Position numbers and translations under genes: made by a program. From positions 1 to 44,590 of the forward strand of contig JANJUB010000052.1 of assembly GCA_024710805.1 (NCBI GenBank): a stretch of DNA of 44,590 nt, given 5' to 3'. The notes beneath the pieces are model-generated. The model had not been told where the DNA came from and made no database searches. It was given only the letters and a program-made list of their open reading frames with translations. Shown here in pieces: positions 12,981-17,518 of this stretch; position 1 is the first letter of the stretch, and the number at the start of each line of letters is the position of its first letter. The stretch comes from Fimbriimonadaceae bacterium. Lineage in GTDB: Bacteria; Armatimonadota; Fimbriimonadia; Fimbriimonadales; Fimbriimonadaceae.

Positions 12981-14156
12981 TTACTTGTCCAACAGCGCGG
13001 CGATGCCGGGCAGGACCTTGCCTTCCAAGAACTCCAGACTCGCGCCGCCGCCGGTCGAGACGTGACTCACCTCATCCGAGAACCCAAACTTCTCGATCGC
13101 CGCCGCCGAGTCGCCTCCGCCGACGATGGTCGTGCCCTCAGCGTCCGCCATGGCCTGCGCCACGCCGCGTGTGCCCGCCTCGAACGGTTCCATCTCGAAC
13201 ACGCCCATCGGACCGTTCCAGACGATCGTGTGGGCGGCTCGCACGACTTCGCCAAAACGAGCGATCGACGCGGGTCCAATGTCGAGACCCAGCATGCCCT
13301 CCGGAATCTCGCCAGCCGGAACCACCGAAGTCGACACCGTCGGCGAAACTTCCGACGCAATCACCACATCGGTTGGTAAGAGCAACTTTTCGCCATGATT
13401 CTTTAGCAGATCGGCCGCATAGGCGAGGTTCGTCTCGTCGAGAAGCGAGCCGCCGATTTGGCCACCGGCCGCCTTGATGAAGGTGAACGCCATGCCGCCA
13501 CCGATGATCAAGTGGTCGACCTTGGGCAACAGACTATCGATCACGGCAATCTTGTCCTTGACCTTCGCGCCACCCAGAATCGCGACGAACGGGCGGGCGG
13601 GTTCGGTCAGCACCTTGCCCAGATAAGCAAGTTCCTTCTCGATGAGGAAGCCGGCCACCGCGGGAAGATGGTGAGCGACGCCTTCGGTCGAAGCGTGGGC
13701 GCGGTGCGCCGTTCCAAAGGCGTCATTGACGTACGCCTGGGCCAAGCCGGCCAACGAAGCAGCAAAGGCAGGATCGTTCTTCTCTTCCTCGGCGTGGAAT
13801 CGGACATTCTCGAGCAGCACCACTTGGCCCGGCTGAAGCGCACCGCAGGCGGCTTCGACTTCGGCACCGACACAGTCGGGCAACAAGGGGACGGGCATCC
13901 CCAACAACTCGGTCAGTCGCGCGGCGACGGGGGCGAGCGAGAACTCAGGGGTGACGCCCTTGGGGCGTCCCAAGTGGCTACAGAGGATCACCGAAGCTCC
14001 GTTCTCGATCAAAAACCGGAGGGTGGGAAGCGCCTCGGTGATGCGGCGATCGTCGGTGATGACGCCGTTCTCGAGCGGCACATTGAAGTCGCAACGAACG
14101 AGGGTGCGCACCCCCGACCACGATCGATCACGCACGGTCTGCTTCTGGAAAGCCAT
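12981..14156 (-). CDS. pgk: phosphoglycerate kinase
   Basis: This 391-aa glycolytic kinase transfers phosphate between 1,3-bisphosphoglycerate and ADP in the cytoplasm. The N-terminal substrate domain has [29 protein letters not shown] and the hinge-proximal [15 protein letters not shown]. The C-terminal nucleotide domain has [33 protein letters not shown] and [13 protein letters not shown]. All family motifs are intact and length is normal. No Shine-Dalgarno is visible before ATG 14156. TAAACT lies exactly 6 nt upstream, suggesting a leaderless promoter of its own even though the upstream gene ends only 23 nt away. No gapA or tpiA lies next to it, so it is separated from the usual glycolytic cluster. 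Confidence 0.97.
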
Positions 14157-14179: not shown

Positions 14180-15403
14180 CTAAGGACTCTGGGCCCAGCG
14201 GAGCTGATACCCGTACTTCCAGTTCTGAGGAATCATCCGGTCGCTGCTGTTGGCGAGCGGATTCAAGGTCGCGTAAGCGGCGATCTGCTGCTCCGGGGAG
14301 CCCACGTGGATGTTCTCCATCATGCGACCGACTCGGTGCGTGCCCAACATCGCCAGTTCGAACTTGGTGAATCGCTCGTCCTTGGTATCGTATTCGGCCA
14401 AGGCGAGCAGACGCCCCTTGTACGTGTCTCGACACCATTCGCTGTCCGCGCGCATATCGTAATGTGCAGTAATCCGCAGCGAAACCTTATTGTTTTCAAC
14501 GGCGACGACTTCGGATTCCATGTTCCCTCCGCGGATGTGGCTCTCCCACCACGCGCTCTGCCCCGCTTGCATGTGGCTCAGCAGGACAATCCGGTTGAAC
14601 AGCGGCCCGGTGACCGACGTCTTCGACCCCGGCGTCAGCTTTGCCGGCAGCCACGCCCGCCACTCGGATGGCTTGTACCAAAGGCGGTCGAGGTGATAGA
14701 ACTTCGGGTGCCGCTGGTCGAACGTGGTCATTCCGGAGAAGGCGTATCCCCGGCTCGAGATCCGCAGATCGAGCGTTCCCGGCGGCTTCTTGAACGCATC
14801 TTGCTCCCACTTCAGGCGGTCCGCGTCGGTGAGCGTCCGGCTTAGGCGACGCTCGGCCGGCGTCAGCCGACGGTACGCGGCCACCGCTTCCTTGAGCGCC
14901 TGCAAGGTAGCGTCCGCATCGGGATCCGGCCAACCTCGGTTCATCCGCCCCAAGTACCGACCCGATGACGAGGCCACGTAGATCCCTTGCTGAATCTGGT
15001 CGCGCATCAGCGTCGCCAACCACTTGCGCTCAAACCGTTCGTGGTCAGGATGCTCTTTATAGTTCACATCATCCACCGCGACGGGGATGAAGTTCTCTCG
15101 GGCGTATTCAACGATGTCGGGGCGAGTCCAGACAAACTGCCTGGTTTTGACTCCGTTCTGTCAGCAATGCCCTCGTGGATCGCCGAAGTACATCCACATG
15201 AGGAGCGGCTTATCTTCGCGCTGCCCGGCCTGCAAGCCTTCGTAGATGGTCGACCGCCAGTCGAGGCGCTGGAATGCCAGGTCTTCCGCGGTCGGCGAGG
15301 CATGAGCCTTGACTGCGGCAAACGTCGCCGCGGTCAGTTCGGCCGGTGGCCGGCGGTCCGCTCCCTGAAGGGGAACCAGAGCGAGCACCAACGCGAGGAT
15401 CAT
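14180..15403 (-). CDS. candidate exported thioredoxin-like selenoprotein (UGA at codon 81 read as Sec)
   Basis: The frame runs 408 codons and is broken only by TGA at 15163-15161. Before it are a hydrophobic leader (MILALVLALVPLQG) and a thioredoxin-like strand (KPLLMWMYFGDPRGHC). The TGA follows this Cys directly. After it the same frame continues QNGVKTRQFVWTRPDIVEYA and NFIPVAVDDVNYKEH, exactly what a thioredoxin-like fold needs, then about 300 residues without further stops. A hairpin with GU in its loop lies 16-33 nt past the UGA (bSECIS-like). Sec at position 81 would form a Cys-Sec pair; a periplasmic redox role is inferred. The C-terminal 240 residues (SSRGYAFSGMTTFDQRHP onward) are an unrecognised domain. 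ATG 15403 overlaps the upstream stop (ATGA). The alternative is a nonsense-mutated gene; read as two genes, the 3' half (GTG 15076) would lack the fold's first strand. selA/B/C are not in the window. Confidence 0.75.
15128..15160 (-). other. candidate bacterial SECIS hairpin
   Basis: On the mRNA (minus strand), 16 nt after the UGA, CCAGGC (15144-15139) pairs with GUCUGG (15133-15128) as 6 bp with one G-U, closing the 5-nt loop AGUUU. A lower stem GAGU/ACUC adds 4 bp, with a 5-nt bulge on the 5' side. The loop GU starts 24 nt after the UGA, inside the range known for bacterial SECIS elements, which need a GU in the apical loop to bind SelB. Confidence 0.6.
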
Positions 15404-16116
15404 GGCAGCGGTCGGAACTCGGCGACAGCGTCGTTCACGGTGAGCTGAGCCTGCAAGACCTCAGCCTTCATGCGCGGAATCCCGGTCAGCAACGTCACTG
15501 GCAGCTCGTTCAGCATCTGCTTGACCTGGTTCCGATTCAGGGCCAACATGTGCTGCAGGGCGCTGATCAACTCTTCGGTCTTATGCCCGCCGTGCGAAAG
15601 CAACACGAGTTCGTACAAGTTGTCGTCGTCGCGTCGGGCAAAGGCGATGTGCTTCGGCGTATGGCCGTCCTCGACCGAGATCGGAACCTCGCGATTGCAC
15701 CCTTCACAAAGCAGCACCTCGGTCTTAGCGCTGTAATAGTTGAGGAAGTTGCAGAAGCCGCAACGAACCTGACTGATCCCCAGCACTTGCCCATCGGGCG
15801 CGATCGGGATCATGCGGTAACAGCCCTGACAGGCAAAGTCGTTGTCCGGCTGCTCGGTAAGTCGGTTCTTGTGCTGGCAGTAGGGGCAAACGACCGCCAC
15901 ACTGGCCACTTTCTTGATCTGGGTGGCTTCGTAAATTGCGTAGCCGATTCCCGCGACTCCCGCCAAGGCGAGCACACCGGCAAGGCCGACCAGAGCGCCA
16001 TCGCCCCGGAAGATGAACAGGATGACCGCAATAACGAGGGCGATTACCCCGCCGATCGCGGCCCCGAGGGCCCTCATTCCAAATTGTTCAACGACATCTG
16101 AACTCCGCTCAGGCAT
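15400..16116 (-). CDS. membrane protein with two zinc-ribbon-like Cys4 motifs
   Basis: This 238-aa protein has two adjacent transmembrane segments near residues 18-40 (ALGAAIGGVIALVIAVILFI) and 43-64 (LVGLAGVLALAGVAGIGYAI). A soluble part follows with two Cys4 clusters: CPYC...CQGC, then CGFC...CEGC. These look like paired zinc ribbons in the cytoplasm. The C-terminal 80 residues are helical (HKTEELISALQHMLALNRNQ) and unrecognised. ATG 16116 has AAAGGAG 6 nt upstream; a TTG two codons earlier is less likely. Its TGA overlaps the ATG of the candidate selenoprotein (ATGA), so the two are translationally coupled and probably act together. A role in redox or metal sensing is plausible but not shown. 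Confidence 0.8.
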   Translation of the reverse strand: MPERSSDVVEQFGMRALGAAIGGVIALVIAVILFIFRGDGALVGLAGVLALAGVAGIGYAIYEATQIKKVASVAVVCPYCQHKNRLTEQPDNDFACQGCYRMIPIAPDGQVLGISQVRCGFCNFLNYYSAKTEVLLCEGCNREVPISVEDGHTPKHIAFARRDDDNLYELVLLSHGGHKTEELISALQHMLALNRNQVKQMLNELPVTLLTGIPRMKAEVLQAQLTVNDAVAEFRPLP

Positions 16117-16177
16117 GACCAACTCCTTTACGGGATGAGACGAGCGCCGACGCCCTCAAGCACCGCGCGCCATCGGG

Positions 16178-16906
16178 CTAGCCGCCGGATTGTTCGACGA
16201 CCGGTACGATGAGCACCGAGCCACGCGCTTGCTCCAATGGCGTAAATCCGTACTCGCGGCCCAGATCGACGAGCATCTCCATTCCCGTTCTTTGAGTATA
16301 GGACACGTTGATCATGGGATTAGGCATTCCCGGCGCGATTTCGATCTTCAGCTTGGTGGTATCGCTGATCAGGTTGAGGACATCGATCAGGCTGGCATCT
16401 GCGACGGACAGATCGTGACGATGCTCCCATGGCATGACCACACGCTCGGTCGGCGGCGGGACCGTCTGCTGGCCCCCCGGGGGCGTGGACTGCGCGGCGG
16501 TCGGGTCGTCCGGCAAGACTTGGTCAGAGCCTTCTGATGCCGGAGGCCCCGACGGACTCAACTGCCCACCCTGAGGAGTGGGAACGGTGGGGGGCGGTGG
16601 CGGATTCAAAGCAACCCACAAGAACGAGCCGAACGCGATGACCGCGGTCGCCGAAAGGGCGGCCACCCAACCGAGGCGACGCGGCGCGGGAGCGGGATTG
16701 GCCCGGGGCACGAACTTGGGGATGACCGGCGTCGGAGCGACAACCGGAGGACGAGCGTGGCGCAATCCGCGCACCATCGCCATCCTCGACTCCAGTTCGG
16801 ACTTCCACTCGGGGAAGCGGCGCTCAAAGTCATCCGCCGCGGCTACATCGGCCGATTCGGCGATCGTCCACATCAGCTGGTCGATATCGGCGGGGACTCG
16901 CTTCAT
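16178..16906 (-). CDS. anti-sigma-like membrane protein with C-terminal STN/secretin-N-like domain
   Basis: This 242-aa protein has four parts. The N-terminal 60 residues (MKRVPADIDQLMWTIAESAD, then a DDFERRFPEWKSELESRM helix) are shaped like a cytoplasmic zinc-less anti-sigma domain. One transmembrane segment is at about 78-101 (LGWVAALSATAVIAFGSFLW). A Pro/Gly-rich linker of about 60 residues follows. The periplasmic end is VADASLIDVLNLISDTTKL, IEIAPGMPNPMINVSY, then GMEMLVDLGREYGF, which matches the STN/secretin N-terminal or DUF4974 type of short beta-alpha domain. Its ATG overlaps the stop of the ECF sigma gene (ATGA), the standard sigma/anti-sigma order. Anti-sigma function is inferred from position and topology. 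Confidence 0.78.
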   Translation of the reverse strand: MKRVPADIDQLMWTIAESADVAAADDFERRFPEWKSELESRMAMVRGLRHARPPVVAPTPVIPKFVPRANPAPAPRRLGWVAALSATAVIAFGSFLWVALNPPPPPTVPTPQGGQLSPSGPPASEGSDQVLPDDPTAAQSTPPGGQQTVPPPTERVVMPWEHRHDLSVADASLIDVLNLISDTTKLKIEIAPGMPNPMINVSYTQRTGMEMLVDLGREYGFTPLEQARGSVLIVPVVEQSGG

Positions 16907-17460
16907 ACCCCCTCCCTCTCGTACAGCAGACGGAATCGCTCTCGGGCTCGATAGAGCCTCGTCTTCGCCGCATTGACGTTGCAGCCCAAGCTGTCGGCGA
17001 TCTCCTGGAGCGAAAGCTCTTCCCAGTAGAAAAGCGTCAGGAGCGCGCGATCCGCGGGGGCCATTTCGGCCATGACGCCTTCGATGCGCGGATCGGAGGT
17101 GTCTTCTTCAATGGGGGCGGCGGCGTGGTCGGCGGCATCCAGGTCGACGAGGCGTGACTTGTACTTGACCCGCCGAGCCTGCTGGATGCTCCGATTGACG
17201 GAGATTCGGAAGAGCCACGTGCTGAACTTCGAGCGCCGATCAAATCGTGGCAAGTGCCGGTAGACCAGTGTGAAAATCTCTTGCACGGCATCGGCGGCCT
17301 CGTCGGCGTCGAGCAAGATGCCCCGCGAAATCGCGAACACCTTGTCGTAATACTTGCCGTAGAGCTGCTCGAACGCGGTCGCGTCGCCCACCAAGAAACG
17401 ATCGACGAGGATCCCGTCCTCGTCGAAGGTTGCCTTGGATTTGTCGAAGAGCAACGACAC
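16903..17460 (-). CDS. ECF-type RNA polymerase sigma factor
   Basis: This 185-aa sigma factor has regions 2 and 4 only. Region 2 includes LVDRFLVGDATAFEQLYGKY, DEAADAVQEIFTLVYRHL and FSTWLFRISVNRSIQQARR. Region 4 includes APADRALLTLFYWEELSLQE and IADSLGCNVNAAKTRLYRAR. The following gene overlaps by four bases and encodes a membrane anti-sigma-like protein, so this is a sigma/anti-sigma pair sensing a signal outside the cytoplasmic membrane. The start is uncertain: GTG 17460 (or 17463) lies at the usual distance from region 2, while a TTG at 17508 is also open. No SD is seen; CAAAAT lies 6 nt before GTG 17460. The zinc-ribbon and candidate selenoprotein genes follow 61 nt after the anti-sigma gene and may belong to its regulon. 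Confidence 0.92.
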   Translation of the reverse strand: MSLLFDKSKATFDEDGILVDRFLVGDATAFEQLYGKYYDKVFAISRGILLDADEAADAVQEIFTLVYRHLPRFDRRSKFSTWLFRISVNRSIQQARRVKYKSRLVDLDAADHAAAPIEEDTSDPRIEGVMAEMAPADRALLTLFYWEELSLQEIADSLGCNVNAAKTRLYRARERFRLLYEREGV

Positions 17461-17518
17461 CACGCTATTTTGGACGCAGGCGCGTGCTGAGTGGGTTACC
17501 CTGGCCAAAAGCCAGCCC

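Follow-up and report, generated by a model that had tools for sequence, protein, structure and literature searches.

The window, by which we mean the whole 44,590-nucleotide stretch of DNA analyzed here, carries on its minus strand a gene cluster headed by an ECF sigma factor and containing a candidate selenoprotein gene (Table 1). This gene opens with an ATG at 15403, closes with a TAG at 14182-14180, and holds a single internal TGA across its 407 codons. Cys80 lies directly before residue 81, and the residues around the UGA read ...GDPRGHC-U-QNGVKTRQFVW...NFIPVAVDDV. An earlier note on this DNA had described one open frame with a single TGA after a Cys codon, and its coordinates and sequence are correct. 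The same note took the product to be exported; the hydrophobic N-terminus, judged by eye, agrees with this prediction, and clearer signal peptides stand at the N-terminus of homologues (e.g., MKRLVYLLIASAIGSASASAQ).

Table 1. Coordinates of the candidate selenoprotein gene, its parts, and its neighbors in the window.
Feature	Coordinates	Strand	Basis or remark
ECF sigma factor, head of gene cluster	16903..17508	-	Sigma70_r2 and r4_2 above cut-off
Upstream gene, 240 aa membrane protein with zinc-ribbon-like CxxC pairs	15400..16122	-	TGA stop overlaps selenoprotein start (ATGA)
Candidate selenoprotein gene	14180..15403	-	407 residues plus TAG stop, UGA read as Sec; homologues match the joined protein over its full length
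Probable signal peptide, short hydrophobic N-terminus	15356..15403 (boundary approximate)	-	MILALVLALVPLQGAD, judged by eye
Thioredoxin-like (DsbH / Thioredoxin_7-like) domain, about residues 28-178	14870..15322	-	AlphaFold2, Foldseek, profile match
In-frame UGA, codon 81, putative Sec codon	15161..15163	-	Shared alignment column in 47/47 TGA homologues and about 30 more loci
bSECIS-like hairpin CCAGGCA-GUU-UGUCUGG	15128..15144	-	7-bp stem, triloop GUU at 15137-15135
C-terminal beta-rich domain, residues 205-407	14183..14791	-	Own model; no recognized relative
Phosphoglycerate kinase	12981..14156	-	PF00162, E 4e-156; 24 nt downstream of selenoprotein stop

The arrangement of ECF sigma factor, membrane protein, selenoprotein, and phosphoglycerate kinase is kept within the genus and not beyond it, and a search for a conserved operon partner outside the genus returned none. 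Between 16178 and 17508 on the minus strand, the sigma factor is followed by a 242 aa single-pass membrane protein, possibly an anti-sigma or secretin-N-like protein; this pair, too, is conserved in the same genus. A paralogue of the candidate selenoprotein in the same genome (G000:C16:9570-10799; L051) bears the motif CTU and lies two genes downstream of an exported Redoxin.

When the joined protein was searched against 101 relatives, 36 genomes gave matches, and almost all of these matches held exactly one internal TGA. We extracted 52 loci and aligned the 51 with a usable match; the column of residue 81 held TGA in 47, Asp in two, Ser in one, and Cys in one. The TGA thus falls in one and the same column in 47/47 TGA homologues, whose identity to the window protein spans 17-96%. 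Gly74, Pro76, Trp49, and Pro66 (window numbering) are present in 47/47 of these members, Asn83 and Gly84 in 46/47, and the stretch W.MNGHPxGCT-U-NNG around the UGA is among the most conserved in the protein. A profile search across 291 genomes of the phylum matched 62 of them and added about 30 further TGA loci, including some from other families of the phylum. A scan of public genome contigs yielded a single locus, a near-identical relative with the same TGA (JADZEW010000026.1; L050), and viral contigs and plasmids gave no match to the family. That contig is titled "Methanoregulaceae archaeon isolate SJ84"; its genus is that of the window's genome, in which the 16S is bacterial and SelA is present, so the MAG looks mislabeled.

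The Cys beside the putative Sec is less uniform than the Sec column itself. It sits two residues before Sec (C-T-U) in 39/47 members and adjoins Sec (H-C-U) in the window's clade, and three members have neither motif. The earlier note had cast Cys80 and Sec81 as a redox pair: this is tenable for the window's clade and fails as a feature of the whole family, in which C-T-U predominates and three members are without an adjacent Cys. Cys occupies the Sec column of full-length members in a single divergent form (L065), and the remaining non-Sec forms have Ser or Asp. In a quick tree of 70 family members, the window's HCU clade (10 rows) has a support of 100, and the other clades include two large ones with CTU. 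The one Cys form is nested among Sec-bearing members, a position that suggests a loss of Sec on that branch, and the Ser and Asp forms make up a separate long-branched group of unsure placement.

Two outlying groups were seen alongside the family. Distant thioredoxin-domain relatives (L133-L141) have Cys in the Sec column; those from L133 to L139 are shorter exported thioredoxin-like proteins with the motif CANART, occur in genomes both with and without SelA, and are candidate distant Cys relatives. Several genomes from other families of the phylum hold a group with an in-frame TGA and the motif GRCUGGAF (L111, L120, L121, L131, L132, and possibly L104 and L122), related to the window family and with some apparently shorter members, which is perhaps another undescribed selenoprotein group.

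The window's genome (3.25 Mb, 95.8% complete) encodes the full apparatus that the earlier note had proposed looking for. Its tRNA-Sec scores 67.2 bits against a cut-off of 47, with the anticodon tca according to ARAGORN, and SelB (347 bits, cut-off 242), SelA (469 bits, cut-off 268), and SelD (356 bits, cut-off 125) are all present. The selD gene (G000:C191:17537-18436; L017, L073) has its own in-frame TGA in the catalytic loop (...SCAGUASKLGP...); SelD with Sec at this place is a known kind of selenoprotein, and the gene therefore serves as an internal positive control. Across the phylum, SelA is present in 45/50 genomes with a TGA-bearing member and in 97/241 others (Fisher p = 2.5e-11, a value that overstates independence because the genomes are related), and the five TGA-bearing genomes with no SelA match are all fragmented assemblies (380-1060 contigs). 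Among genomes whose sole member lacks Sec, one with Ser (G045) and one with Asp (G024) are without SelA, and another with Asp (G006) has it; a further genome (G035) has no SelA, and the Sec column of its member is unreadable.

Downstream of the UGA lies a hairpin with a predicted energy of -7.7 kcal/mol, its stem beginning 16 nt past the UGA and its loop 23 nt from it. The consensus bSECIS model has a loop of 3-9 nt, a stem of 4-16 bp, a G in the first two loop positions, a distance of 16-37 nt from the UGA, and an energy of at most -7.5 kcal/mol (PMC13188914), and the hairpin of the window falls within every one of these limits. The earlier note had placed such a hairpin correctly; the loop it gave, AGUUU, takes in the A and the U that form the closing pair. 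Shuffling synonymous codons (n=300) gives -2.5 kcal/mol (p = 0.007), and over 47 genes of the family the mean is -6.5 against -2.6 kcal/mol for synonymous shuffles. Across the 15 loci of the window's hairpin group, 95.9% of the stem cells are paired, against 9-39% when the stem is slid along the sequence, and a few changes are compensatory. Where the window gene and four relatives encode the same residue, 8-10/10 codons are identical within the hairpin, compared with 42-70% over the remainder of the gene. A dinucleotide shuffle of the fold of 71 nt gave no significant signal (z = 0.37); what supports the hairpin is therefore the set of tests that are local, codon-aware, or comparative. Hairpins vary in offset and sequence among subfamilies, and in the VRGRQLVW group they are individually weak (p 0.13-0.4 for most members). 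RNAalifold returned no consensus structure for all 45 distinct sequences because the hairpin offset differs by subfamily.

The protein folds, in an AlphaFold2 model built on the family alignment (pLDDT 85.5, pTM 0.86), into an N-terminal thioredoxin-like domain followed by a beta domain. Residue 81 follows strand 67-72 and immediately precedes helix 82-90, at the N-terminus of the active-site helix. The sole convincing Foldseek match is DsbH (2ju5; E 3.8e-3, prob 1.00, TM 0.58 on target), and a profile match to PDB chain 3f9u (E 6e-4) extends across the thioredoxin domain. In the latter alignment residue 81 pairs with the first Cys of CVNC and Gly84 with the second, which puts Sec at the nucleophile position and leaves the resolving Cys of CxxC missing; relative to DsbH and DsbD-gamma-like proteins, then, the thioredoxin fold is present and the CxxC is absent, with U-x-x-G in the aligned positions. 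Modeled alone, the C-terminal domain is equally well predicted (pLDDT 85.5, pTM 0.85); it has no match among PDB folds (best E 0.012, TM-score at most 0.31) or in Pfam and NCBIfam. Both the thioredoxin-like half and the unrecognized C-terminus had been proposed in the earlier note, and these structural data agree with it on each.

A skeptic could hold that the TGA is a real stop and that the locus is a pseudogene, a sequencing error, or two genes, and standard gene calling does yield exactly two ORFs, of 80 residues and of 298 residues (from a GTG at 15076). A start at this GTG would, however, sever the thioredoxin fold behind its active-site helix. Dozens of genomes share the TGA at this column, between highly conserved flanks, and its presence in an independent genome with 95% amino acid identity (JADZEW010000026.1) excludes a sequencing error. 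Compared with the relative from the same genus, the gene has a dN/dS of about 0.08 upstream of the UGA and of 0.03-0.04 downstream, which indicates that the downstream part is translated and constrained, and the region past the UGA is under RNA-level constraint as well; we regard a genuine stop as very improbable. Reassignment of TGA in this lineage (e.g., to Trp or Gly), or readthrough by a near-cognate tRNA, would likewise leave the frame open with a residue other than Sec at position 81. TGA nonetheless closes ordinary genes here, among them the upstream gene that ends at 15400, and none occurs in the SelA matches of 142 genomes, so that it is a normal stop; in-frame TGA is seen only in family members and SelD, in genomes that have dedicated Sec machinery. 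This possibility strikes us as extremely improbable. Pseudogene, sequencing error, and code reassignment were accordingly rejected on the conservation of the locus and the normal use of TGA as a stop.

A different challenge accepts the Sec and disputes its chemistry: the residue could bind a metal, selenium, or an organometal rather than take part in thiol or peroxide redox reactions. The bacterial selenoprotein families already catalogued include some that bind metal or are related to mercury (PMC13188914, Table 1), and the second Cys of CxxC is absent, which makes a classical dithiol cycle impossible. Yet the Sec stands where a thioredoxin fold has its nucleophile, a Redoxin gene lies close to the genome's second family member, and the 47-member alignment has no conserved metal-binding His/Cys cluster. 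We consider a binding role unlikely.

We think it very likely, in sum, that the gene encodes a 407-residue exported protein in which SelB and the hairpin direct the insertion of Sec81, the redox nucleophile of a thioredoxin fold. The earlier note had called it a candidate selenoprotein, a proposal borne out by the homologues with TGA in the same column, the sel genes and tRNA-Sec, and a hairpin of bSECIS form. At UGA codon 81, SelB with Sec-tRNA(UCA) would bind the hairpin that starts 16 nt downstream, Sec would be inserted, and the full 407-residue protein would then be exported. In the N-terminal DsbH / DsbD-gamma-like domain, Sec would replace the first, nucleophilic Cys of CxxC and Gly the second (U-x-x-G). 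Sec most likely attacks a disulfide, a peroxide, or a similar oxidized substrate, and the resulting selenylsulfide or selenenic acid would be resolved by the Cys that precedes Sec directly in the window's clade (HCU) and by two residues in most members (CTU) or, in members with no nearby Cys, by an external thiol. The C-terminal beta domain probably binds a substrate or partner. The members of the family probably function as exported selenol oxidoreductases.

In our reading, these proteins constitute a new selenoprotein family. Neither the motif nor the architecture of the window family appears in the 2026 catalogue, which covers 119 families and subfamilies of prokaryotic selenoproteins (PMC13188914), and NCBIfam release 20 has no model for the family; all of its Pfam and NCBIfam matches are below cut-off, the nearest NCBIfam model, VPGUxxT, far below. 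A literature search on selenoproteins of Armatimonadota or Fimbriimonas found nothing relevant. The suggestion of the earlier note that the architecture may be undescribed is in keeping with these searches. All known selenoproteins now appear to have Cys homologues (PMC12013277). Judging by the sequences of 291 genomes, close full-length Cys forms of this family seem nearly absent within the phylum. We raise, as a reading less likely than not, the idea that the family is Sec-dependent. The full-length protein would then have no functional Cys form among its close relatives; it would instead disappear or take on Ser or Asp, frequently where the genome lacks Sec machinery.

The family, which is widespread and multicopy in many genomes, would enlarge the catalogue of roughly 119 families and subfamilies of prokaryotic selenoproteins, and it suggests that Sec is used more widely in this phylum than annotation shows. 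Standard pipelines split such genes at the UGA, and selenoprotein finders that rely on Cys homologues would tend to reject the members of this family. If close Cys forms are truly absent, the family offers a way to examine which tasks Sec can perform and Cys cannot.

Several known systems resemble the window family in part. The VPGUxxT family (NF041382, NF041383; hypothetical protein OS_HP5) likewise has a single Sec in a thioredoxin-like protein, and its thioredoxin domain is weakly similar (best E 4e-4 among 46 members); the window protein, however, scores 15.3 bits against cut-offs of 350 (NF041382) and 275 bits (NF041383), and its family has the motif [HD]PxG(C/H)(T/C)UxNG (GHCUQNG in the window), not VPGUxxT. 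A search of the 291 genomes of the phylum for NF041383 members found none, and the same search matched no control genome either. DsbH (2ju5) and the Pfam families Thioredox_DsbH / DUF255 and Thioredoxin_7 share the thioredoxin fold, with the Sec of the window family at their nucleophilic Cys position. The window protein scores 16.4 against Thioredox_DsbH / DUF255 and 17.5 bits against Thioredoxin_7 (PF13899), under the gathering score of 27, and the best Thioredoxin_7 score among the members shown is 21.7. DsbH has a CxxC, whereas the window protein has Gly in place of the second Cys and an extra 200-residue beta domain. The putative exported cytochrome c biogenesis-related protein 3f9u, DsbD-gamma-like, has a matching thioredoxin domain with its first Cys under the Sec; it differs in having Cys instead of Sec, an intact CxxC, and no C-terminal domain in the solved chain. 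The Trx7/PDZ selenoprotein NF041199 (CxxU) is a Sec-containing Thioredoxin_7-type protein of the 2026 catalogue (PMC13188914). At E 0.1 none of 46 window-family members matches it in NCBIfam, its PDZ domain is not found in the window family, and Sec is the second residue of the CxxC pair in NF041199 and the first in the window family.
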